DNA of 15,356 bases from Jimgerdemannia flammicorona (taxonomy: Eukaryota; Mucoromycota; Endogonomycetes; Endogonales; Endogonaceae). Position numbers and translations under genes: made by a program. Below the pieces are notes generated by a model. It was not told the origin of the DNA and made no database searches. It saw only the letters and a program-made list of their open reading frames with translations. Below, piece after piece: positions 1-15,356 of this stretch. Positions within the stretch are counted from its first letter, which is position 1. Every line of letters starts with the position of its first letter. The stretch spans positions 1-15,356 of the forward strand of contig RBNI01003695.1 in assembly GCA_003990745.1 (NCBI GenBank), read 5' to 3'.

Positions 1-939
1 TTGGTCTCCGTGTACTTGGGTTTGCTCGGCATCAAAGTAGACAGAATCAGTTGTATATCTGATTTCAGATGGACTTAATTCAAAGTCAAGTTCTGGTTCG
101 GTATTGGTTTCAGATTCAGGTAGAGTTATAGCAGGGCCTGCTTCAGGTTCGGGATCAGGTAGTTGATGAAGGGTTTCTCTTGCTTCTTCTTTAAGAATAT
201 GGCAGGCCTTGCTGTTCTGGAATCGGTAGTATAATGCGGTCTTGGTCCTGGTATGGTGAAAGTCGGTAGAGTTGAGCCACTTGGCTACAGAGGCTTGGGC
301 TTCGTGAGGAACTAAGGCTAGAAAGACTGCTGCTGGTTGTCCTAGATTGCTCGGGTTTGTGGAGCTGACAAAACTCTTGTTGAGAAGAGTAAAGAAGGCT
401 TCTATAAGACCTTCTTCGTCTTGACTTACTGGGTGTAGTGCAAGGAGTTCGGTGAATAGGGTTTCACCTATTTGCTGGTTTAATCGGAGTACTTCTTTCT
501 TTGAATGAAGTTTGTCCCACTTGTTGCAGGTGTGGAGGTCAAATTGTCCTTGTACATCAGGTTCAATTCTCTCCAGATTGTCAGATGGTTCAGAATAAAT
601 TCCAGTTCAGAGGTTGGGCTTTATACCAACTTGTAGGAATTTGCAGAAGGGTTTGTAGCGGGGTGAGGAAGCATCTTGAAGTGGAATTGGATTGTAAACC
701 ATTGCTACCAAGTTGTAAGAGGGTTGCTTTTTAGGGTAACCATTACGTAGTTCTGGAAGGGTTTTCTGGAAGTTCTGGATATTCTGGAAGACTGTTTTCT
801 TATGGTCAAGATCAATTTCATATGGAGTACGTCCTCTACGCTTATTGATTTCAAGATCGGGTTGACGTTTCAACCAAAGTCCTTTTTCGGACTAGTTCTG
901 GATGTTCAGGATTTTCCATATTTCAGGAAGTTCAAGAAA
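1..939 (-). pseudogene. Gag-like open frame of LTR element (partial, unrecognised)
   Basis: One minus-strand frame runs from 939 off the left edge of the window. It is broken only by TAG at 892-894 and TGA at 607-609, and the last 202 codons (606 to 1) are fully open. It has no in-frame ATG, GTG or TTG in that open part, so its start lies upstream or was lost. The first part is basic (KRRGRTPYEI near 850-820). The middle is helical and hydrophobic with FFTLLNKSF and VFLALVPHE. The end is Pro/Glu-rich and acidic (LPDPEPEAG and following). Its place just downstream of the LTR fits a Gag first domain, but no CCHC knuckle, protease or RT is inside the window, so the family assignment is inference. 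Both stops can arise by C-to-T change on the coding strand. A host gene truncated by the element is a less likely alternative. Confidence 0.45.
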
Positions 940-942
940 CTA

Positions 943-1112
943 AGACCAGCTTAGTTGAATTGGCGTATCGCTGCAGACAATATCCAATTAGGAAATTTCG
1001 TGGCGGGGTTAGGAGTGGGACCTAACGGGGAGCAGATTTACTTAAGAGTGGTTTGTGGGTTATTAAATAGGTTTATTTGCTATTCATGATATTGCTATAC
1101 TAGGAGTAGTTG
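943..1112 (-). other. Leader between LTR end and gag-like frame
   Basis: This 170-bp stretch lies between the probable LTR end at 1113 and the gag-like frame. It has stops in the gag frame (940-942 and 988-990) and keeps several CpG sites. A tRNA primer-binding site would start with TGG directly after the LTR; the bases there read CAACTACTCC on the minus strand, so no standard site is visible. A self-primed element or a different LTR boundary (near 1087, TATCA) are both possible. Confidence 0.35.
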
Positions 1113-1192
1113 TGTAAGGGGATATTGTGGGGAAGTGCTCAGGATTGTTCTTGTGTGTTCAAGTCTGAGATTCTGAGGTCTGGGAGAGGGGG

Positions 1193-1200
1193 TATTTATA
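1193..1200 (-). promoter_or_regulatory. TATA box of the element transcript (3' part of LTR)
   Basis: TATAAATA on the minus strand, about 80 bp before the LTR end. It is followed by a pyrimidine-rich stretch and then TCAGAATCTCAGACTTG, a likely start region. The same box is intact in the otherwise more decayed copy at 8438-8445. A second TATAAATAG lies at 1378-1386 and is also kept, at 8623-8631. Confidence 0.5.
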
Positions 1201-1389
1201 CTAGTGAGGGGCTATCTGGGCTATGCTAGATATGGATGTAGCACTAAGTGCTTTGCTGAGTCAGAATGCAGTTACGTAGTACAAGGGTGATCTGACATGT
1301 CAAGAGATCGTCTGACTGCTGAGTTAGTTCACAGTCATGTCATACAAGGCTAATCTAACTATACTATGACTGCTAATCTATTTATAGGT

Positions 1390-2487
1390 TTACACGCTGT
1401 CTGGGTAGTCTTCGATGACATCACCATCGATGACATCATCTCTGATGAAGTAGTTATCTAAGAAGAGTGGTTCGTGGATTACTTCTCCTTATTGGCTGAG
1501 GTAATAATACATTGGGACTTCATCTCCGTCCCACAGGATAGCATCATCTGTCTCGTATGCTGGATAAGGTGTTGGTGGGCGAAGGAGGGGTGTGCTGTCT
1601 TTGCTTTCATCAGATTCGCTGTCTGCATACCTTCTATAGGTTACAGCACTATGAGTTGCAGGGTTGTAGTAAGCTGGCAGCTGTAGTTCATGTCACTCGT
1701 ACTCAGGTGGTGGAGTTGTTGGTTCGATCTCGAGGGTTGTCTGAAGGTACAGGTTGTGTTCTCCAGTCTCTTCATTGTAGTTGAAGTAATCGGGGGTGAA
1801 TGCAGGTTGGTATTCATGCCAGTGATCATTGTCCCAATAAGTCTCGTATGCTGTTATGAACTATTGTAAGTTCATTGGCAAGGTTGGTGGTGTGATCAGG
1901 GTTGGTAGAGATCCTTGGCTTGAGGTCATATCAGTGTCAGAGGGATCATTGTCTTCTGCTTCGTCTTCATCAAAGTTAATTATATCGTAGACGTCCTTCA
2001 TGGCGTATCCAACTTGGGGCATTTGCAGAATATGGTTGTCAGGGTGCAGAAAGGTTCTGTCGGTAGTCTGAACGTATTCGAGATACTTGTGGTTGAGTTC
2101 TTGTATCATGTCGTCGATTTGGCCATAGGACAGGGTAGCAACCATTTCACTGGTAGTAACTTGGAGGCAGGGAATAAAGGTGCTGTACTCATAGAAGAGT
2201 TCTCGGTGTTTGCGGGTGATGAGCTTCTGGTGTTGAGACATTTGGGTAATGTCTGTATCATAGTGGTGTTTGACCATGTCTTCCAGGAGGCGGCTGATCT
2301 AGTAGTAGCTTGAGATTTGTCCGATCTGGTGGGCCTCGTTAAGCATGTTCAGGGCATTCCATCGGGCTTCCACGAAGTAGAGGGGTGTGAGGCTATGGAT
2401 ATTCATGAGGGGTAGAGGGGGTGTGGCTCGGTTGACAATAGCATTCCAAATGTCAGCACGGATGTGGTTGTAGATCTCGGTGGTCAT
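1390..2487 (-). pseudogene. LTR-borne 366-codon ORF, unknown acidic protein with PPxY motif
   Basis: A single minus-strand frame runs from ATG at 2485-2487 to TAA at 1390-1392. It is interrupted only at codons 63 (TAG, 2299-2301), 209 (TAG, 1861-1863), 265 (TGA, 1693-1695) and 333 (TAA, 1489-1491), with no frameshift. The start is favoured by its context (CAAACATGACC) and by a CAA-rich leader downstream of a TATA box; an earlier in-frame ATG at 2544 lies too close to the TATA. The protein begins MTTEIYNHIRADIW. The N-terminal half is helical with many Tyr and His. An acidic linker follows near residues 170-195 (FDEDEAEDNDPSD). The second half is Pro/Tyr-rich and acidic, with PPEY at residues 260-263 and a second acidic patch (DSESDESKD). 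No zinc finger, protease, RT, integrase or DDE motif is visible. I do not recognise the family. Its end overlaps the part of the LTR repeated at 8330-8695. An accessory retroelement protein is an inference. Confidence 0.55.
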
Positions 2488-2556
2488 GTTTGTGTTTTTG
2501 GAAGTTGTAGTTGTTGTTTGTTTTGGTTCTCTGTTTTGACACATCTCGGAGCTCAG

Positions 2557-2581
2557 TATATATGCATCTGTTCTTGATTGG
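2557..2581 (-). promoter_or_regulatory. CCAAT + TATA promoter at start of LTR
   Basis: On the minus strand CCAAT (2577-2581) is followed by TATATA (2557-2562), then about 70 bp of CAA/ACA-rich sequence and the ATG of the LTR-borne ORF at 2487. Both boxes are preserved in the diverged copy on the plus strand (CCAAT 9509-9513, TATATA 9528-9533) although its surroundings have changed at many sites. Confidence 0.5.
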
Positions 2582-2670
2582 TAAGATTCCGTTTATGTGA
2601 ACCTTGTGTTCTGTGACTTCGTATTGACTCAGCTTCGTGATCATACAGGTGATTTCCAGATTTGTTCAGA

Positions 2671-2727
2671 GGTCATGTGTGATTTCGGTGGCTTGTTAAG
2701 AGGGTGACGTGTGATTTCTGTGGCTTG
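2671..2727 (-). repeat. 32-bp-period tandem repeat in LTR upstream region
   Basis: Two units with a 25-bp core, at 2671-2695 and 2703-2727, match at 22 of 25 positions with a period of 32 bp. A third, partial unit (GGTGATTTCCAGA) lies at about 2649-2661. The rightmost unit contains TGACGT, a bZIP/CRE-like half site. The position upstream of the CCAAT/TATA pair suggests enhancer-like elements; this role is inferred. Confidence 0.5.
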
Positions 2728-2744
2728 AAGGTTGTGCGCTTACA

Positions 2745-5700
2745 CAACTGGTGCCCCTCTTCAAAAATAAAGAGCCAATGTCCAGCCAGCCTCACCCATA
2801 CTGCTAAAACCCACCCTACAGTTAGTTACCCATTGCCCACCCCACCCACTAACCTAGCCTTCAAATCCTCTCAGTAGTCTCTCTCTCCATCTGGCCTCCT
2901 TTTTACATCCAGTTGGTCACCTACTGCTATACAAAAGTTCCCCAGAACCTCACACTCTCCAAGTCAGTATTCTGGTGTCTGCACATAGCCCCCAACTTGT
3001 CCAATATTATAGCACTCCTCACAATCATATTGGCCACCTTCTACTAGATGCCTAGCATGGAAATTCAATATGACATTCCTCTGCAATATCTGCTACTAGA
3101 CCACCCAGAACTTGGAAGGAAGCTATCTCTGCACCTCTGCACTCTATGACCAGACTCTTGTCCAGTCTCACTCCTTGCCAATCCTCACTACCTGTCAACC
3201 ACTCAACCAAAGATTCTGACCAAGGCCCTTCTGACACTCCACCCCATCACTAAAATCAAACTCAGCAAGTGGGACACCCCTAAGAAGCAGTCTGTCCCAC
3301 TGCCACATAGCTGGTCTCCACATCATCTCCCCCTTATTGCTATGCCAGCATAGGCCTATTCAGTGTACTCCATCCACTACCCTCCACCAGAAGCTCTTAT
3401 ACCATAGCTGGTGGCATCTAACCAGACCTACCAGTGAAAGCAAATCTCCCAAGAATCCTCTTGGGGAGAATCTTATCTCCTATATCTTCTGCATCAGTAG
3501 CACTCAGCCCCTTCTCTTCAACTCAACAGCTCTTTGCAACCACTATGCTCACAGGCAGTGCAGCCTCTTAGAAAGGTCCACCAGACCTAGCCCTCTCCAA
3601 ACCACTGGTGATGCCAGAGTGTCCCAACTGATCTGAGCCCACCTCTCTGCCCAAATCTAGTCTCTAGCTAGCTTCATCAGCCTCTTCACCACTCAAGCTG
3701 GAAAGTCCAAATGATAAGCAATATACTACAGCTTAGGGAATCAGTAGACATTCAGAATCAATACCCAGCCAGTTAGAGAGATGTGGTGACCTCCCTAATC
3801 TAAAAGCATCTCTCCCCAAATGGCCACCCTCATATCTATGGCAGGACAGAACCATATACAGAAAGGAAGATGCTCAGATATCTCACCACCTCTCCCATAG
3901 AGACAATTGTTCCAATGATGTCCCCACCCACTAGCCCATTCTCTAGCACCATTGTCTCACACTTATGCCAGTTGAGTTTTGCCTCAGAATGTACCTCATA
4001 CCATTCCACTATCTCTCAAAGTATCTCAATATCCACTACTGAGCCAAGGCCAACTACCATATTATCTGCAAAGACCCCCACCTTCTACACCACACCATAT
4101 ATAGAGAGTTCTGCCACCTTCTATCATATCCTATCCATCAAAGGTTCCAATGAAAGAGTATAAAGGATAGAAGACTGTGGGTCCCTCTGAGGAACTCTCC
4201 TTCCCAAGGGAAATGCCAGACCCCAGTACCCATTACACAATAGTGCTGCCCTGCTACCCTCCAACAGACCCAACATAGAAGTCTGAAAGCATGGCAGAAT
4301 ACCAATTCTATCCAGCACCTTGCTTAGCCACACTTACTGAACACAGTTGTAGGCCTTCTCCTAGTCCAAAAAGACCAGTCTTCCATCTAATCTACAAGCC
4401 TATACTCCTTCAATAATGCCATGGACCCAGGCTATACCATCTCAGATAAGTCAGCCTCCAACACAGCTCCACTGCTCCTCACCTAGCACCTGTTGGGCAA
4501 CCTTCTGTAACCTCACCACAATTACCTTGATCACCATCTTTCTGTCTATATCCAGAAGCATAATTAGTCTCCAGTTCTTCCAGTTCTCCCTCTACCCCTT
4601 GTCTTTATACAACAAGGCCACCAACCCCAAGTCCTGCTTGCCAACCCACTCACCATTCAGAAGAACATAGTCACAGAGTACCACCATCTCTCCTAAAACT
4701 CCAGGAACCTTCACCATCTTTTTCCAAAAGTCCCAAGGTAACTCATCCTCTTCTAGCACTGTCCCAAGCTTAGTTGTAGTCAGGACTCTCTGAATCTCCT
4801 CTTTATGAACTGGTAGGACCAAATCACCCAGGCTCTCAACTTGCAGTGGTTTCCAATCCTCAAATATATCTCCAATTGCCTCCTCATCTACATCCCCTTT
4901 CTCTTCACTCCACAGACCCCTCCACCTTTCTTTCAGCACTTCTAAGATCTGTTATATGTTACAAACTATTTCTCCATCTGCATTTAGCACCCTATCTCAT
5001 TGATGCTGCACCCTCCTAGCCTGGAGGAGTCATAACAAGTACCTAGTAGGCTACTCCCCCTCCTCAAGTCTCTGCTACCTCAGCCTAGCTGCCATTCCTT
5101 TCATACACATCTCCTCCTCCTCTCTCAATACCTGTTGCTACTCTACTACCTCCAATTTTGCATGTGCCAACCTCCAATCATTGCCCTCACCAGAATTTAA
5201 CAAATCAGCCCATTCTATCTGCAATTTAACCAACCATTCAGAAGTACTCTATACCCTTTTCCTCCTCTGCTTCCCTGTCTCTCTGCCAGCCCCTCCTCAG
5301 TCTACCTATGTAGTCTCTTTCAACTTTAGCCAACAGACACCTACTGGCAAACCCTTGTATGTCTAGCCAGCAATCTTTATCTGGATATCTTCCACTCAAG
5401 AGTTCCACAAGACCTTCTCTGCCAGCAGAGAGGAGTTAGGGTGCCAATGTCTGGGTCTATCTCCACTCTCCCCAAACTGCCCCTGCCTCAATAGGTCCCA
5501 GTGATCAGACCATGGGCACTACTCCACCTCCAGTGACTTCCAGACATCCAGGCCCCAGCATTCAGACATCAGGATCCAGTTAATCCTTGTACTCAGTCCA
5601 TTTACCCAGTATGTATAAATCCTCTTTTCTCCCCACCATATCCTGTCTATTTCACCTAAGGAGCTGAGGGTCTCCACCTCCTCCCATGCATCCAGGCCAC

Positions 5701-6180
5701 CACTCCTCCCACCCACATTTTTCCCTCCATCAGTGCAATCTAACTGAGAGTTCTGCACCATATTGAAGTCCTCTCCCAGAACATCTATCTCTTCCTCCAA
5801 TAGGGTGGTCTCTTCTAACAGACCCTTAATCCATACAATCTGCTCACCCCTAGCTGCCAGGCAGTAGCAAGAGCCAACTTTCACTGGCTCTTACCCAGGT
5901 CGATACCATTCCCCTCATACCAATCAGTCCTCTCAATTCCTGATTTCACCTAACTCCCCTTTTCCACTCTGTATCAAAATTGCCACCTTATCAATCCAAA
6001 CTATAGCCCCTCTCCATTCTCTAGTCCACTCTACTCAATTCTTCTCATCTTCACAATATACATTCTACAGTAGAAAGAGATCAGCCTCCAAACCCTTAAG
6101 CTAAGAAAAATGTTCTTTTACCACCCAGAACCCCTCAACCTATTCACATTCAGAGAAAAAATGTTAGTTATACTGTTTAT
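2745..6180 (-). pseudogene. LINE copy A ORF2: endonuclease-reverse transcriptase, decayed
   Basis: The start that copy B uses (ATG) is ATA here at 6178-6180. The endonuclease part shows a GEDFNMVQ block (normally GDFN; near 5770), STRINWIL and SDHW (SDH codons 5501-5509). The reverse transcriptase part shows LLYKDKG (near 4600), the motif A area with the first Asp kept at 4364-4366 but followed by TAG (4361-4363) and Asp-to-Asn at 4346-4348, LEGSRAALLCNGYWGLAFPLG (around 4200-4260), and FADN at 4061-4072 where the family has FADD. The C-terminal Cys pair lies at 3012-3023. A frameshift falls between 6180 and 5884 and another between 4124 and 3023. The last codons before the LTR junction align with copy B (FEEGHQL versus FEEEQQL). 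The protein would act in target-primed reverse transcription, but this copy cannot make it. Confidence 0.8.
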
Positions 6181-6217
6181 TGGGAATAATATTTAGGAGT
6201 AAGATCCAGTATACACT

Positions 6218-8147
6218 CTACAAATCCACATTTCTCTCCTCTCACACCAAGTCCAAGATATGTTCTGCCACCAACTCCTCCTCTTCAGTCTCCTTTGCCT
6301 CCAATTTCACCAGAAGTTCAGCCATCACCCCATCCTCCTTCTTCTCGAATTCCTCACAATATTCCAGGCAGGCCTCCTGCTAGAGTTTCAGATCATGATG
6401 CTCTGCCCAACAGTAGGCAGTCTGCTCACCAGTAACAACCACCAGCTCAGCCTCTCTTTCCTTGTCAACCTCATACCCCTTCTCTTTTAGAAGAATTGCA
6501 AGCACCTCCCCCTTCAGAGCTGCTACTACCCCATTACTACACAGGATCTATACCCAATGCTCCTCGCTCATCATGCTCAAATCTACTTCTCCTAACTCCT
6601 CAGCTACAAATTCATTCATCATTTGATGCATCTACAGTAGATTCCCCACCTCCTTCCCTCCTGGTGTCACTGGTCTTCCAGTATCTAGTATTGTGGTATC
6701 AGCCCTGGCACTTGCAGACTCATCCCACTCCTCCTCTGGAATATCCACCAGCTTGTTCTTGTCAACTGTCACTACTTGTCCCCCTTTTGCCACATCGGAG
6801 ACTTCAAAGTATACTCACTGGGCACCCCTCATCAGCATATTCTCTGCCACCCCTCTCTTCACAGCTGGGCCTCTCCTGATAAGAGAGGGAGTGTCACCCA
6901 AATCTTGCTCCCAGACTTCAAATGTACCATCCACATATGGGTCCTTGCTCAGTATCTTCCCAGCCCCCTTTTGGCCCTCCTCCACCTCTCCTCCTCCTTT
7001 ACTAGTCCAAACACTGGCTTTAGCACCCCCAGACTCCTCAGCCCTATCCACCTCCTTCTTTGCTCCTCCTTTCATACTTGCCAACAGCTCTCTCTGCCTC
7101 TTGTACCCCTGGGCCCACTCTTACTACCTCTTATTAGTGCAGACATGTTTCCTCTCCACAATCTCCAAATGTATTGACTTTACATATTTCTTCCAGACTG
7201 CCACCCTCTGCTCAACAGCTCCACTCATCTCTTTCAGAGCCTCCAACAGATCCTCCTCCTCCTCCTCACTCTCTTTCACCCTCAATACCTGATAGATGAA
7301 AGCCCCCCATAGCATCACTGACAGCCAGTCACTTGTCTTTTCAGTGGCCTCCTTCTCTACTAGCCAAATCCTTATATCAACATTGCTAGTCCTGATAGTG
7401 GTCCCCTCCTATATCTGGAAACCAATATCAACCACATTACTATACTCTGCCATCACCTCCTCAACTTTCCTTCTTGTCTCAACTGCCATTACCATAGGCA
7501 CCTCCTTCACCAGCAGCTGAACCACTCTGGGGTTCCACCTAAGACAGTACACTATAGACCACTACTTCCCTGACCACCACTCTAGTCTTCAGAGTCTCAT
7601 CCAGTGAGCCCATCTCCTCAAAGCCCACTTTAATCTCCTCAAGACCCTTCAGGAACTTCACCAAAGTGGCCCTAGTCACCTGCTTCAAGATAAGCCCCAG
7701 GACCATCCTTGCTATCATCACCAAGCCCTAGAAGCACAAGGTAACCACAAACTCTGAGATCGACTTCTTGAGCAATAGTGCCACCACCAGCCCTGTCACA
7801 CTACCTGCCAGATCCCCCTTCTGCATCAGGAACCCCTGCCCCACCTTACCATCAGCTATCACATCTCTTTTTTTTTCCTGATTCTCCATCACACTCTCAT
7901 CAGCAGTTCCACCCTCAGCCACAGCACCTCCAGCCCCTATACTCACATCCCTCACCTGGGTACTGTCTCCCCTACTGATGGTAGCCTTGCTCTTCCCCTC
8001 AGCAGTACCAGCCCTAGCTCCAACTGGCCATCTACTCTCCTTTACCTTGTCCACAAAGCTAGGGGGGCCAGACCTTCCCCCATTTCCACCCAACACCAGT
8101 CCTCCTCCAGAGCTTTCTCTACTCTTTGATCCTCCAAAGGTCTCCAT
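6218..8147 (-). pseudogene. LINE copy A ORF1, decayed
   Basis: The start at 8145-8147 (METFGG) aligns with MGSFSS of copy B; the frame is open a little further upstream but only with GTG. The N-terminal ~130 residues are Gly/Ser-rich and basic, with SFVDKVKES matching SFADML of copy B. A conserved helical part follows (GLVVALLLKKSISEFVV, then FLKGLEEIKVGFEEMG). Next comes a Glu-rich stretch (SEEEEEDLLEALKEM near 7240-7270), then a C-terminal part with VDKEREAELVVVTGEQ and a coiled coil rich in Glu/Lys/Leu, ending at TAG 6218-6220. At least one frameshift lies between 7539 and 7318, and several stops are present. In LINEs this position encodes a nucleic-acid-binding partner of ORF2, but I see no CCHC knuckle. 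Confidence 0.7.
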
Positions 8148-8329: not shown

Positions 8330-8695
8330 TGATACTAGGAGTAGCTGTGTGAAGAGATATTATGGGGAAGTATTCAGGAGTTGTATTCAGATGGTTCAAG
8401 TATTTAAGTCTGAGATTCTGAGGTCTGGGGGAGGGGGTATTTATACTAGTGAGGGGCTATCTGAACTATGCTGAATATGGATATAGTACTTAGTACCTTG
8501 TTGAGTCAGAATGTAGTCATATAGTACAAGTATAATCTGATATATCAAGGGATTATCTGACTGCTGGGTCAGTTCACAGTCACATCATATAAGGCTAATC
8601 TAACTATACTATAACTGCTAAGCTATTTATAGATTTAGATGCTGTCTGGTTAGTCTTTGATGATATTACTATTGATGATATCATCTCTAGTAAAG
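8330..8695 (-). repeat. Fragment: 3' part of the LTR (same orientation as left LTR)
   Basis: It matches about 1087-1451 in the same orientation. The blocks CTGAGATTCTGAGGTCTGGG and TATTTATACTAGTGAGG are nearly unchanged, and both TATA boxes are kept. Differences are mostly C-to-T and G-to-A: the CG and CA sites of the left copy (TTCGATGACATCACCATCGA) are TG and TA here. Similarity stops near 8695, so the fragment has lost the rest of the LTR, including nearly all of the ORF. The 69 bp between it and the LINE 5' end at 8260 match nothing else here. Confidence 0.75.
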
Positions 8696-8817
8696 TCTGA
8701 GCAGTTTTCTGACTTCTGATATCATTAGTTTCAAAGGTGTCATCACCTTTATCTCTTGCAAAATTAAGGCTATCCTCAGTAGCAGTAATTGTTTAAGGAT
8801 AACAGGTCTTGGTTCTC
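8696..8817. other. Unassigned spacer
   Basis: AT-rich sequence between the LTR fragment and the SINE-like unit. It has no ORF and no match elsewhere in the window that I can see. A short hairpin-like AAAGGTGTCATCACCTTT lies at about 8733-8750. Confidence 0.4.
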
Positions 8818-8950
8818 TTTTTTTTTTGGACTACTGGTGCATTTGCGAGGACTGGCCATTCTTGTCTAGGGCAAGGGCTCCCAATGTCATAGCTGGGGAT
8901 TCGAACCTCTTAGAAATAATATTTTCTATAATCTGAGACAATTTCAAATA
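8818..8950 (-). mobile_element. SINE-like unit with tRNA-type promoter boxes and A tail
   Basis: On the minus strand a perfect B-box, GGTTCGAATCC (8897-8907), is preceded by an A-box-like TGTCTCAGATTATAGA (8925-8940), which matches TGGCTCAG-TTGGTAGA types at 12 of 16 positions. About 70 bp of unrelated body follow, and the unit ends in a run of ten A (8818-8827). This is the plan of a tRNA-derived SINE, a class known in several fungi. The A- to B-box spacing is about ten bases short and the acceptor stem does not pair, so it is not a working tRNA. It could be mobilised by the LINE family here; that is inference, since the LINE 3' end is not in the window for comparison. Confidence 0.45.
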
Positions 8951-9314
8951 GTAATATCTATCATGTAGATGGGCTTGAGATTGGTTTTGACAATGTCAGC
9001 TTTCTTAAGTTCAGATGAAGTATCTGTTATTCTCTAATAGAGGTGATACAGATAGAGTGAATAGAGTTGTTCAAATGTATTTTGCTTCTACTAAGTAATG
9101 AGGTCTTTATATAGTTATAGTATATCTTAGTCTTAAGTTGATAAGTACAGTTCATGAATCTTTGATAGATGAGATAGGGTTCTTCTTATCTTGGTTTGAG
9201 TTTGGTACTTCAGTTTCTTTTTGTAATAATATGGTATACCAAAACTAGTTGTAGAGATTCAGAGTCAGTCTTATAGTTGTAGGTATTCTTATGTCTTAGC
9301 AGTAGGTTCATGTA
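8951..9314. other. AT-rich spacer, possible remnant of another LTR
   Basis: About 360 bp without an ORF of note. On the minus strand there is a TATATAAAG at 9105-9113 and a GGTATACC palindrome near 9232-9239, which could be what is left of a further promoter or LTR. I see no terminal repeats or internal copy to support this. Confidence 0.3.
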
Positions 9315-9572
9315 TGTAAGCACACAACCCCCAAGTCACTGAAATTATATGTCACTCTTCAAACAAGCCACTGAAATCACATATGACCTCTGAACAAATC
9401 TAGAAATCACCTGCAAGATCATAAAGCTAAGTCAAACTAAAGTTACAGTGCACAAAGCTGAGTCAACTCAAAGTCATAGAATATAAGATTTATACAAACA
9501 GAATTTTACCAATCAGGACCAAATACATATATACTGAGTACTGAGATATATCAAAACAAAGAATCAAAACAA
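9315..9572 (+). repeat. Fragment: 5' part of the LTR (opposite orientation)
   Basis: It starts TGTAAG at 9315 and follows the minus-strand LTR from 2744 to about 2510, in plus orientation. The tandem U3 units, CCAAT (9509-9513) and TATATA (9528-9533) are all recognisable. CpG sites of the left copy are TG or CA here (GCGCAC to GCACAC) and CA often reads TA. A 31-bp tandem duplication (9423-9453 and 9454-9484) is present only in this copy. Similarity ends before the ORF start, about 70 bp from the LINE copy B 5' end. Confidence 0.75.
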
Positions 9573-9752
9573 ATAGTAATCTCTCTCTACTACAATTCAT
9601 GTTACACATACTTTTACAATACACTTTTAAGTTATTTATTAGAGAAAGATATTATAGTAATATCAACTAGTAAGTAAGCAGATGTGTATACTAGGTCAGG
9701 TGGACCTGGGGCCTTCAACTGGCAATATGTCAGATGAGGGTCTGGGCTTAGG

Positions 9753-11677
9753 ATGGGGTCTTTCAGTAGCCTGAGTGGGCAGGGCAGCTCAGGCAGTAGA
9801 AGTGGCACTGGTGGTGGGGCTGGTGGGCAGAAGGAGAGGAGCTTTGCAGACATGCTGTGGGCTGGTGGTTGGCTGGTAGATACTCGTGATGGGCAGACAG
9901 GAGAGAAGGGGAAGCAGAGGGTTAGAGAAGCTGGAGGGGCTGGACCTCAGCTGGTAGAAGGTAGGGCTGGTAGGAGTAGTAGTGGGACTGCTGGTAGCAG
10001 CATGACTAGGAATCTGGAAAAAAATCCAGATGTAACTGTTGATAGAGAGGCTAGGCAGATGGGCCTAAAGCAGAAGAAAGACCTGGCTGATGGTATGATG
10101 GGGCTAGCAGTGGCACTGTTACTCAAGAAGTTAATTTTAGAGTTCATAGCAATCTTGTACTTCAGGGACTTAGCAGTAACAGTGAGAATAGTTCTGGGGC
10201 TTATTTTGGAGCAGATAGCTAGAGCAGCCTCAGTAAAGTTTCTAAAGGGGATGGAGGGAGTGGAGGTGGGCTTTAAGGAGATGGGTCCATTGGAGGAGAT
10301 ATTGAAGACTAGTGTGGCTATAGAGGAGGTGGTGGTCCCTATAGTGCAGTACTTGAGGTGGGACCCCAGAGTAGTGTAGTTGCTGGTGAAGAGAGTACCT
10401 ATAGTGATGAAGGAGGAGACTAGGAGGAGGGTGGAGGAGGTGATGGTGGAGTATAGCAATGTGGTTGATATTGACTTCCAGATGTAGGAGGGGACCTCCT
10501 TCAGGATAGGTGATGTGGATGTCAGAATTAGACTGGCTGGGAGGGAGACCACAGGGAAGACAAGTGACTGGTCTTCAGTGCTGATGTGGGGGGCATTTGT
10601 CTGCAAGGTGTCAAGGATGAAAGGGAGTGAGGAGGAGGAGGAGGACCTGTTGGAGGCTCTGGAGGAGCTGAGTGGTACTGTTGAGTAGAGGACAAAGGCC
10701 TGGAAGTTGTATGTAGAGTCAATACATCTGGAGATTATTGACAGGAGACATATTTGCACTGACAAGAGGCAGTGAGAGAGGGCTCAAGAGTGCCAGAGGC
10801 AGAGAGAGCTGCTGGCAAGCATGGATGGAGGGGTGAAGATGAAGGCTGAGAAGACTGAGAAGTCTGAGAGAGTAGAGATGAGTATCTGGGCAGGAAAGAG
10901 AGGAGAAGATATGGAGGAGGGTCTGGAGGGAGCTGAGAAGGTACCTCACAAGAACCCTTTTACTGATGGTACATTCGAAGTCTGGGAACCAGTCATTGAT
11001 GACACTCCCCCACTGATCAGGCGGGTCCTGCTACAAGAGGTCAGGTGGCAGAGGATGTGTTGATGAAGGGCACCCAGTGGGTACATTTTGGGATTCCAGA
11101 TGCTGCAAAAGGTGGACAGGTGGTGGCTGTTGGTGAGGATGAGCTGGTGGATATCCCAGAGGAGGGGTGAGATGAGACTACCAGTGTAGGGGCAGATACT
11201 ATGATACTGGATGTGGGAAGGCCAGGGATACTGGGAGGAAAGAAAGTGGGGAACCTGCTATAGATGAGCAAGATGATGGATAACTTTGCAGCTGAGGAGT
11301 TGGGAGAAGTGGACTTGCATGTGATACCTGAGGAGCATTGGGCATAGATTCTGCATGGAGATGGAGTGGTGGGGGCTCTGAAGGCTGAGATACTTGCAAT
11401 CTTCCTGAAGAAGGAGGGTTATGAGGTTGATAAGGAAAGGGAGGCTGAGTTGGTGGTCATTACTGGTGAGCAAGCTGCCTACTGTTGGGCAGAGTATCAT
11501 AGGCTATAACTCTGGCAGGAGGCATGTCTGAAGTATTGTAAGAATTTTGAGGAAAAAGAGGATGGGGTGATGGCTGAACTTCTGGATAGACTAGAGATAC
11601 AGGCAGCAGAAAAAAAAGTTCTGGCTGCTAAACATAACTTGGACTTAGCACAAGAGGAGTTGAATGTGGACTTGTAA
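9753..11677 (+). pseudogene. LINE copy B ORF1, decayed (about 641 codons)
   Basis: Start ATG 9753 aligns with the copy A start. The first 208 codons are open, to TAG 10377-10379. The same frame goes on with further stops (TAG in about 10480-10490, TAG near 10683, TGA near 10770) to about 11020. A one-base loss in GCGGG at 11021-11025, judged against copy A, shifts the frame, which then runs to TAA 11675-11677. Parts in order: a Gly/Ser/Arg-rich N-terminus with SFADML (near residue 33); a conserved helical stretch (VALLLKKLILEFIAILYF, FLKGMEGVEVGFKEMG); an acidic EEEEEDLLEALEEL block (10628-10670); a block with FTDGTFEVWEPVIDDTPPLIRR; and a C-terminal coiled coil (EEKEDGVMAELLDRLEIQAA). No CCHC knuckle or RRM is evident. 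It is probably an RNA-binding/assembly protein by position. Confidence 0.75.
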
Positions 11678-11708
11678 AGGATGAGACTGATATTTAACAT
11701 TATTCCTT

Positions 11709-14700
11709 ATGAATAGTATAACTAACATTTTCTCTCTGAATGTGAATGGGTTGAGGGGATCTGGGCAGTATAAGAACATTTTTACTTGGCTTAAGGGTTT
11801 GGAAGCTGATCTCTTTTTACTGCAGGATGTATGGTGTGAGGGTGAGGAGGATCAGGTAGAGTGGACTAAAGAATGGGGAGGAGCTACTGTCTGGATTAGC
11901 AAAGTGGTGATTCTGGTGAGGAGGGGTAGAGGAGATTTAGGTGGAGTTAGGAGCTGGGGTGACTGATTAATATGGAGAGAATGGAGTTGACCTGGGTGGG
12001 AGTCAGTGAGAGTTGGCTCCTGCTATTGCCCTACTGCTAGGGGTGAGCAGATTGAGTGGGTTAGAGATCTTTTAGAGGAGGATATTCTTTTGGAGGAAGG
12101 AGTGGATATTCTGGGAGGTGATTTTAATATGGTGCAGAATCCACAGTTAGATAGGATGGATGGCAGGAGGAGTGCAGGTGGAAGAAGTGGTAGTCTGGAT
12201 GCCTGAGAGGAGGTGGAGAACCTGAGCTCCTTGGATGATGTGAGTAGAATATAGTGGGGCAAGAAGAGAGTTTATACATACTGGGTGAATGGTCTGGACA
12301 TAAGGATTGACTGAATTCTAATTGTTGAATACTGGGGTATAGATGTTTGGAGATCTCTGGAGGTGGAGTGGTGTCTATAGTCTGATCACTGGGGACTTTT
12401 AGGGCAGAAGCAGTTTGGGGGAAGTAGAGATAGACCTGGACATTGGTGCCTTAACTCCTCCCTGCTGGCTGAGAAGGTATTGTGGGATACATGAGTGGAG
12501 AACATCCAGGTGAAGATGGCTAGCTGGATATATAATGGTTCACCTGTGGGTGTATAATAGATGAGATTGAAGGAGACTGCAAGAGTTTATTGAGGAGAAG
12601 CTGATAGGGAGGCTGGGAGGTAGTGAAGAAAGAGAGTATGGTGTACTTCTAATAGGCTGCTTTGATTATAGTTAGAGTGGGCTGATTTGATTTCTGCTGA
12701 AGAGGTGGGGGATTGGCAGCTGGAGCAAGTGAAATGAGAGATAGTGGAGCTGTAATAGATATTGAGAGATGAGGAAGAAATTCATATGAAAGGAATGGCT
12801 GCCAGACTAAGGTGGCAGGGGCTTGAGGAAGGGGAGAGGCCTACTAGATACTTGTCAAGACTTCTCCAGGCTAGGAGAGTGTGACATTGATGGGATGAGA
12901 TCCTTGATGCTGAGGAGGAAATAGTGCATAGTATACAACAGATCTTAGGAGTACTGAAGGAGAGATGGAGAGATCTGTGGAGTGAGAAGGAAGGAGGTGC
13001 AGATGAGGAGGAAATTGGTGACACACTGGAGGAGTGGGAACCACCACTGGTGGAGGGCCTTGAAGATTTGATACTACTGGTCTGAGAGGAGGAAATCCAT
13101 GGTATCCTGGCAGAGACTAAGCTCAGAACAGCATCAGGAGAGAATGAGCTACCTTGGGACTTTTGGAAGAAGATGGCAAAGGTCCCTGAAGTGTTAGGAG
13201 AGATGGCTGCCCTCTGTGACCATGTTCTTCTAAATGGAAAGTGGGTTGGTGAGCAGGACTTAGAGCTGGTGGCCTTATTGTATAAAGACAAGGAGAGGAG
13301 GGAGGATTGGAAGAACTGGGGGCTGATCATGCTTCTAGATATGGACAGAAAGATGTTGACTAAGATGATTGTTGTGAGACTATAGAAGGTTGCCCAACAG
13401 ATACTGGGGGAGGAGCAGCAGGGTTTTATTGGAGGCAGGCTTATCAGAGATGGGACTGCCTGGGTTCATAGCATCATTGAAGAAGCAAGAGCTTGTGGAT
13501 TGGATGGGAGACTGGTCTTTTTGAACCAAGAGAAGGCCTATGACTGCATTCAGTGGGTGTGGCTAGGCAAGGTACTAGATAGAATTAGTGTTCCCCCATG
13601 ATTTCAAGCTTCTATATTGAATCTATTGGAGGGGAGTAGGGCAGTACTGATGTGTAATGGTTACTGGGGTCTGGCATTCCCCTTGGGGAGAGGGATTTCT
13701 CAGAGAGATCTACTGTCTCCTATTCTCTATACCCTTTTATTGGAACCTTTAATGGATAGGATATGACAGAAGGTGGCAGGGCTCTCAGTGTATGGTGTGG
13801 TGTGAAAGGTGGGGGCCTTTGTAGATGATATGGTAGTTGGTCTTGGCTCAGTGGCAGATGTGGAGATACTTCAGGAGATAGTGGAATGGTATGAGGTACA
13901 CTCTGGGGCAAAACTCAACTAGCATAAGTATGAGATAATGGTGCTGGAGAATAGTCTAGTGGGAGGAGATGTCATTGGAACAATTGTCTCTACAAGAGAG
14001 GCAGTGAGGTATCTGGGTATCTTTCTCTTGGTATATGGTTCTGTCTTACTACAAGTGTGGTGGGAGAGGAGGGTGGCCATTTGGGGGGAGGCTCTGAGAG
14101 GTTGGGGAGGTTGCCATATCTTCCTAACAGGCTGGGTATCAATCCTGAATGTCTACTGGTTCCCTAAGCTGTGGTATATTGCTTATCATTTAGACTTTCC
14201 AGCTTGGGTGATGAAGAGACTGATGAAACTGGCTAGAGATTGGATTTGGGCAGAGAGGTGGTCTCAGATCAGTTGGGATACTCTGGCAATACCAGTGGTT
14301 TAGGGAGAGCTAGGCCTAGTAGATCTTCCTAAGTGGCTATATTGTCTGCAAGCTTGGTGGTTGAAAAGGGCTGTTGAATTGCAGAGAAGAGACTGAGTAC
14401 CTCTGATGCAGAAGGTGTAGAAGATGAGATTCTCCCCATGAGGATTCTCAGGGGATTTGCTATCTCTGGTAGGTCTGGATGGAAGCTGATGGCTATAGTA
14501 TAAGGGCTTCTGGTGGAGAGTAGTGGATAGAGTGCACCAGATAGACCTGCACTGGTGAGGTAATGAGAGGAAGATACTGTGGGGCCCAGCTATATGGCAA
14601 TGGGACCAACTGCTTCTGAGGGGTATTCTACTTACTGAGTTTGACATTGGTGATGGAGTGGAATGTCAGCAGGGACTTGGACAGGATCTGTGGCCAAGTA

Positions 14701-15356
14701 GCTGGCAGGCAGTGGAGATTGGTGAGGAGTAGAACTAGGCAGAAGTCTGGTCATAGAGTGTTGAGGTGTGGAGGTAGCTTCCTCCAAAGTTCTGAGTAGT
14801 ATGGTGGAGGATGCTGCAGAGGAATGTCATGTTGAATTTCTATGCTAGGCATCTGGTGGATGGTGGTCAATTCAATTGTGAGGAGTGTTATAATGTTGGA
14901 CAAGTTGGGGGATTTGTGCAGACACTGGAATATTGACTGGGAGAGTGTGAGGTTCTGGGGGACTTTTGGTTAGCAGTTGGGGCTCAGTTGGGCTCAGTTG
15001 GGTATGGAGAGGAGGTCAGATGGAGAGAGAGGGCAGTGGGAGGATCTAAAATCTAGGTTAGTGGGGGGTGTGGGCAATGGATGGCTCACTGTAAGATGGG
15101 TTTTAGCTGTATAGGTAGGGTTAGCTGGACATTAGCTCTTTGTTTTTGAGGAGGAGCAGCAGTTAGATATATAGGAGAAGTTGTTGAGATGGGAGGGGTT
15201 GATGGGAGATCTGTTGACTGAGTGGTGGGTTGGTTGGAGGCCCCAGGGTGGGTGACATTGTCATTTGGTAGAAGGGATATATGAACAGAGTAGTGGGCAG
15301 ATAGCGATAGTGAATGACAAAGTGGTCTTTCATCGTAAGGAGGTAGGGAGGGGGGG
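11709..15356 (+). pseudogene. LINE copy B ORF2: endonuclease-reverse transcriptase, decayed, partial
   Basis: Start ATG 11709 gives an APE-type endonuclease: FSLNVNGLRG (residues 8-17), LLQDVWC (Asp40 where the family usually has Glu), GGDFNMVQ (12112-12135), RID-IL (12302-12320) and SDHWG (12381-12395). The reverse transcriptase follows: LLYKDKERREDWKNW (near 13275-13320), GFIGGR (13422-13439), LNQEKAYD with Asn for the first catalytic Asp (13524-13526), FPLGRGISQ, and FVDDM (13818-13832, both Asp intact). A C-terminal motif reads C-x2-C-x14-Y-x4-C (14877-14948). One frame holds from 11709 to about 14980 with stops only; a 10-bp duplication (14981-15000) then shifts it. The shifted frame goes on to the window end with FEEEQQL (copy A junction point) and IAIVNDKVVFHRKE. 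It is inactive. Confidence 0.85.
14981..15000 (+). repeat. 10-bp tandem duplication causing frameshift in ORF2
   Basis: GGCTCAGTTG occurs twice in a row (14981-14990, 14991-15000). Copy A has a single equivalent. Ten bases change the frame by +1, which is exactly the shift needed to join the upstream ORF2 frame to the downstream coding-like frame. Confidence 0.75.

Follow-up and report, generated by a model that had tools for sequence, protein, structure and literature searches.

Evidence for an accessory protein gene within the long terminal repeat of a Ty3/gypsy element of the fungus Jimgerdemannia flammicorona

The genome of Jimgerdemannia flammicorona most probably harbors a chromovirus-type Ty3/gypsy element with an accessory protein gene in the U3 region of its long terminal repeat (LTR), a reading to which we assign a probability of roughly 0.8. 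One copy begins in the window (i.e., the whole stretch of DNA analyzed; 15,356 nucleotides of contig RBNI01003695.1, here C3695), and the genome searched for further copies comprised 134.8 Mb in 7754 contigs. In the proposed layout, the LTR would consist of a U3 of approximately 1600 bp (containing its own TATA box, a CAA-rich leader, and an open reading frame [ORF] of 365 codons), a second TATA box, an AATAAA signal, and U5. The second TATA box would start the gag-pol RNA, and expression of the ORF would be possible from every LTR, including solo ones. In LTR elements, reverse transcription duplicates the 3' U3, so that each transposition would copy the ORF to both ends of the element.

The ORF in the window lies on the minus strand at positions 1390 to 2487, with its ATG at 2487 and its TAA at 1390 to 1392. 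Translation of this copy gave 365 codons plus the stop codon in a single frame, with no frameshift and four internal point stops, in agreement with the original prediction of a 366-codon ORF at this place. The CCAAT/TATA pair predicted 5' of the ORF was likewise found (ACCAATC at 2576 to 2582 and TATATA at 2557 to 2562, both on the minus strand), as was the CAA-rich leader in the window sequence. The predicted extent of the LTR did not hold. It had been placed at a CTTACA at position 1113, giving a unit of about 1632 bp, and this CTTACA proved to be internal to the LTR. The terminus is CCCTCTTACA at 714 to 723, followed in the window by ACTTGGTAGCAATGG, and the complete 5' LTR (TGTAAG...CTCTTACA; 714 to 2744, minus strand) is 2031 bp long, about 400 bp longer than the predicted unit, with a boundary that is common to copies flanked by a polypurine tract, copies flanked by a primer-binding site, and solo copies. 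A primer-binding-like site, TGGTAGCAATGG, lies at 699 to 710 (minus strand). The start of the internal, gag-side region occupies positions 1 to 698 (minus strand), where it aligns to internal sequence of two other loci (L064 and L061) and the element continues beyond the window.

A DNA search of the genome with the predicted unit yielded at least 43 matches from the 40 scored of 3563 first-look candidates, and 30 loci were fetched. Similarity continued past CTTACA in 29 of the 30 (L018 diverged after approximately 55 bases), also in copies marked as 3' LTRs by the polypurine tract AAGCTAAGAAGGGGAGAG; among three long stretches 3' of such tracts, the likeness ended approximately 2060 bp after TGTAAG. 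In eight loci (L001, L003, L006, L008, L011, L014, L027, and L030), the LTR end was followed by a primer-binding-like site, ACTTGGTAGCAG(C/T)GGTTTAC or a sequence close to it. Both LTR ends were obtained in 28 of the 30 loci, with no end for L002 and L018. These 28 comprised nine solo LTRs, ten LTRs with the tract ahead of them, and nine running into internal sequence; for the nine 5' LTRs, the ends were taken from primer-binding-site junctions in eight, and L017 had no correct end. In the loci with a correct end, LTR lengths were 2032 to 2134 bp, mostly 2060 to 2066 bp. The junction of tract and LTR occurred 830 times genome-wide (at most one mismatch), compared with 0 occurrences of the reversed pattern. 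The ORF region was inside the LTR in all nine solo LTRs with perfect 5-bp duplications (L005, L007, L010, L015, L016, L020, L021, L023, and L025); being part of the LTR there, it travels with it and did not enter these copies by a later insertion.

The upstream side was read for three elements (C9, C71, and C27), one of which (C9) was complete. Read as two separate stretches (L065 and L061), the C9 copy has the order 5' LTR, gag side, dUTPase, protease (PR), reverse transcriptase (RT), integrase (IN), polypurine tract, and 3' LTR, with ATTAG before it and ATTGG after it (one mismatch). Its ORF is present in both LTRs, each broken by internal stops, and this copy supports the earlier proposal of an LTR family that carries an accessory gene twice per full element. 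In C71 (L064), the 5' LTR is missing its first 555 bases and abuts an LTR in inverted orientation. For C27 (L066), no LTR was found within the 9.1 kb read upstream, and the internal region is interrupted by a stretch of approximately 5 kb.

The element is a Ty3/gypsy element with a dUTPase. It has two LTRs with TG...CA ends, a 5-bp target duplication, a primer-binding-like site, and a polypurine tract. The Ty3/gypsy order of PR, RT, RNase H, and IN is seen in PR, RT, and IN pieces that follow one another in L065, each a broken piece scoring below the curated Pfam cut-off, and in an RNase H well above the cut-off in L064 (E = 6.6e-33), located between the places of RT and IN. The dUTPase (PF00692) was detected in L065 (4558 to 4866; E = 9.4e-18) and in L049 (2493 to 3026, minus strand; E = 3.4e-30), the latter belonging to an ORF-less variant described below. 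The gag-side piece gave no match to a Pfam gag model, and a chromodomain-like stretch at the integrase end was read by eye in L064 and L065. We also considered a gag start within the LTR, by way of an open frame across the junction of the LTR and the primer-binding-like site (607 to 873, minus strand), but do not propose it: eight of the nine translated copies share a stop at one place, where the ninth (L027) is in another frame.

We took 30 loci of 3' LTRs in which the tract and the LTR start matched exactly, following the order of the contigs; 17 were of the ORF-bearing type (type A), 11 were of a second type (type B; L031, L034, L042, L046, L048, L049, L050, L052, L053, L055, and L058), and two were rearranged (L036 and L059). 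Type B resembles type A over the first 25 to 32 bp (by BLAST for 5 of the 11 and by eye for the rest where printed) and again from approximately 20 codons ahead of the ORF stop onward. The middle is a different stretch of approximately 720 bp, in which there was no ATG-started sense ORF of 100 codons. Type B LTRs thereby lack the upstream TATA box and retain only about 20 codons at the end of the ORF, and they keep the downstream TATA box, the AATAAA signal, and the tract ahead of the LTR. Since the two types share their ends and differ in the middle, the ORF and its promoter may have entered, or left, the LTR as a module long ago.

Integrase-region sequence adjoins the type A LTR in 17 of 17 loci (the best integrase piece in L045 is 260 bases long, and approximately the last 330 bases are missing from L047 and L056) and the type B LTR in 0 of 11, except for a remnant of approximately 100 bases in three. 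Four translated type B internal pieces contained a zinc knuckle, a dUTPase, or a protease; in one of them, the protease part runs on into a chromodomain remnant. Judging from these stretches, type B elements, which have a U3 of their own, seem to be without RT, RNase H, and integrase and seem to depend on type A elements. The abundance of ORF-less type B elements indicates that the ORF is dispensable in cis, and the retention of the downstream signals by a variant that lacks most of the ORF along with RT, RNase H, and integrase makes it probable that the protein acts in trans.

Both types are found elsewhere in the window. A type B LTR fragment without the ORF lies at 8332 to 9290 (minus strand; 86% to positions 1101 to 154 of the L034 LTR), and the 5' end of another type A LTR lies at 9315 to 9579 (plus strand; 82% to positions 1 to 265 of the L027 LTR), so that the two adjoin in opposite orientation. 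The window further contains two long repeats in opposite orientation (2746 to 7557, minus strand; 10339 to 15164, plus strand) that are 75 to 88% alike in six large blocks. These are probably LINE-like, given an endonuclease-like piece at 11709 to 11966 (PF03372; E = 1.4e-4, below the cut-off).

The ORF was free of stops and frameshifts in 3 of the 46 copies in hand, i.e., in 2 of the 30 loci chosen by DNA similarity and in 1 of 16 type A 3' LTRs taken in contig order (the truncated L043 being excluded). Of 52 aligned rows, counting duplicates, 48 kept the ATG and 49 the terminal TAA. Among the best 111 of 4043 candidate genome matches to an open copy, 26 had no stop or a single TAA, and in L027, the one such TAA copy that was read, this TAA is the normal terminator. 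Stops or frameshifts in the other 43 copies, together with the lack of a recognized domain, are what would be expected if the frame were open by accident in a regulatory U3 and had stayed so only through the young age of the copies. The pattern of variation among the copies speaks against such an origin. With the ORF start set at LTR position 289, non-CpG transitions common to at least 6 of 45 copies fell on codon positions 1, 2, and 3 in the numbers 15, 6, and 37 (p = 2e-7), and those common to two to five copies in the numbers 44, 34, and 81 (p = 3e-7), and singletons numbered 22, 35, and 43 (p = 0.03); the counts include two copies twice (L032 = L061; L033 = L062). Transitions in the CpG columns of the ORF had no codon-position bias.

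Nonsynonymous-to-synonymous (N:S) ratios were calculated from variants present in at least two copies and outside CpG columns, with C-to-T and G-to-A type changes excluded. The ORF had 14 nonsynonymous changes of 1903 possible versus 31 synonymous changes of 371 possible (ratio, 0.088; p = 2.4e-15; n = 42 copies, which are related by descent and hence nonindependent). The reference for this ratio, L027, has deaminated sites of its own that are wrongly classed, which should push the value toward 1. The 42-copy set was without L032, L033, L037 (= L063), the truncated L043, and, unnecessarily, L040 (its LTR was in the set only once), as well as five diverged copies (L063, L062b, L045, L060, and L041); restoring the diverged copies and L043 gave a ratio of 0.091 (n = 48). 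The same test gave 0.13 for the positive control, the integrase-chromodomain region (14 copies). By contrast, the ratio was 1.14 and 2.32 for the ORF read in its two shifted frames, 0.39 for the 3' untranslated stretch (p = 0.15), and 0.87, 0.48, and 1.46 for the three frames of the LTR tail (p = 0.81, 0.06, and 0.51), none of these negative controls (0.39 to 2.3) being significant at 0.05. All three parts of the ORF were constrained (codons 1 to 160, 0.049; 161 to 250, 0.085; 251 to 366, 0.136). The deamination-type changes were nearer neutral (0.67 in the ORF and 1.01 in the integrase).

A ratio of about 0.09 in the ORF frame, set against 1.1 and 2.3 in the shifted frames, demonstrates that the protein was under selection in the replicating lineage; dN/dS among copies had been named as a check of the original prediction, and the value obtained is integrase-like. 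Moreover, a 66% identical relative of the ORF protein (P0003; ENA; 247 amino acids [aa]) ends at the same place. The frame-specific constraint, which matches that of the integrase and is seen neither in the shifted frames nor in the LTR tail, largely refutes an accidental frame, which we regard as very improbable. Another origin, capture of a host gene that the LTR carries as a passenger, would agree with the exchangeability of the U3 middle shown by type B LTRs, and no relation of the ORF to gag or pol was seen. However, the best 111 of the 4043 own-genome matches were all 88 to 100% identical and nearly full length, with no distant paralogue among them (one may be hidden), and the synonymous-rich variation shared across LTR copies indicates that selection acted in the element lineage. 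We therefore consider a captured passenger gene unlikely.

The two LTRs of the C9 element (L065, 515 to 2577; L061, 54 to 2117) differ at 162 of 2062 aligned sites, with 0 transversions and 0 gaps, the transitions being mostly in CpA, CpG, and CpC contexts. This decay looks like cytosine deamination, and the ORF decays by transitions after its phase of selection in the replicating lineage. Under such heavy, transition-only decay, counter-defense would pay; a protein that limits copy number or counters host silencing, in the manner of Nef or Rem or of p22 of Ty1, is thus a possible though tentative reading, with which the apparent separate promoter would also be in keeping. Heavy CpG methylation has been described in a fungal genome rich in repeats (PMC4165359).

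The candidate promoter of the ORF (P1), the upstream TATA box, was present as TATATA in 48 of 48 type A copies and in 0 of 11 type B copies when scored at LTR positions 150 to 320; the CCAAT-like motif ACCAATC was present in 35 of 48 and 0 of 11, respectively. Directly after the ORF, TATAAATAG (1378 to 1386, minus strand), a possible further promoter, was found in 38 of 47 type A and 11 of 11 type B copies. The downstream TATA box (P2; 1193 to 1200, minus strand), the candidate promoter of the gag-pol RNA, reads TATAAATA near LTR position 1576 and was present in 34 of 34 type A copies that were long enough and in 10 of 11 type B copies; among 32 copies, the segment around it showed the lowest variability in the LTR. 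AATAAA, the candidate poly(A) signal (1072 to 1077, minus strand; near LTR position 1701), was present in 33 of 33 long-enough type A and 10 of 11 type B copies. Variability around the upstream TATA box (0.101, versus an LTR average of 0.082) was no lower than elsewhere, which counts against a tightly kept upstream promoter. The downstream TATA box would mark the end of U3, and with either downstream box the whole ORF would fall within U3. Conservation of the TATA and AATAAA motifs thus points to a probable U3 location of the ORF, ahead of the place where the genomic RNA would start, and from motif matches and conservation we infer two promoters per LTR.

As for the protein, two open ORF copies matched no Pfam family at E values up to 1, and no membrane segment was seen by eye. 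Relatives were sought in 5.8 billion proteins with a search that finds only proteins of similar length sharing short exact words; besides P0003, it returned P0004 (JGI; 128 aa; 91% over 35% of the query). Acidic and aromatic residues abound in the C-terminal 205 positions (45 D/E, 7 K/R, and 31 F/W/Y; pI, 4.05), and with this composition of the C-terminal half, a regulator of the expression of the element's own LTR is the role that we favor, although only tentatively. A structural or assembly factor (Gag-like or late-domain-like) instead of a regulator is possible to a similarly limited degree. The N-terminal half is helical in a weak AlphaFold2 model, and PPPEY and PPAY motifs occur in many genome copies, but the model, made with 16 natural sequences, has a mean pLDDT of 33 and is too low in confidence for use. 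The two PPxY motifs were rejected as a functional handle because P0003 is without them, and type B elements were amplified without the ORF, although supply in trans is conceivable. The structural and counter-defense roles are equally close to the regulator role.

A more specific and more doubtful proposal is that the U3 gene is self-contained, being driven by a promoter of its own, and that its product would activate the downstream LTR promoter in trans, much as Tas does in foamy viruses. The ORF-less satellites would then exploit this activator together with the RT and integrase of autonomous elements, and they would, just as doubtfully, have kept only the target promoter.

Mouse mammary tumor virus (MMTV), a retrovirus of mice, carries the protein gene sag in its LTR and thus at both ends of the provirus, and Sag is a membrane glycoprotein. 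The likeness to the present element consists of a gene inside the LTR at both ends, an arrangement that would not be expected of a nonviral element. The ORF protein differs in having no membrane segment by eye, and the absence of any Pfam family at E values up to 1 in the two open copies gives no sign of a relation to the MMTV superantigen family. An LTR gene in retroviruses, a dUTPase in fungal Ty3/gypsy elements, and LTR subfamilies with variant U3 regions are already known. Ty3/gypsy elements with a dUTPase include PosPlaTy3 of Postia, the Phanerochaete elements, and Tmt1 of Tuber; they share the dUTPase domain with the present element, and the available part of the report describes no ORF in their LTRs, and a further ORF, of unknown function, is named in a figure legend (PMC2864245). 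The LTR variants of crapaud of Podospora anserina diverge in the part of U3 that precedes the TATA box and have a common 3' half, but these LTRs are 339 to 443 bp long with a divergent U3 of <200 bp, and the accessible text describes no ORF in them (PMC10787394). Retrosat2, RIRE3, and RIRE8 of rice are long-LTR elements with, as here, an extra ORF (ORF0, of unknown function), but LTR, ORF0, and ORF1 are presented as separate parts, and LTRs are said in the same source not to code for replication enzymes (PMC3485330). LTR retrotransposons of bdelloid rotifers have a dUTPase and extra ORFs, as here, but the extra ORF is an ORF3 besides gag and pol, and none is placed inside the LTR in the portion of the report available (PMC5408684). 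Among the titles and abstract starts listed from the open-licence literature, no gene inside the LTR of a nonviral retrotransposon was found.

Retrotransposon LTRs are usually regarded as regulatory DNA. With a gene under protein-level selection in the LTR, solo LTRs, which are normally counted as dead, would stay potential gene copies, and many such copies may turn up as orphan genes in genome annotation. The satellite variant amounts to a natural experiment that splits cis-acting from trans-acting LTR sequence. The present element suggests that keeping an accessory gene in the LTR is a trick not confined to retroviruses.
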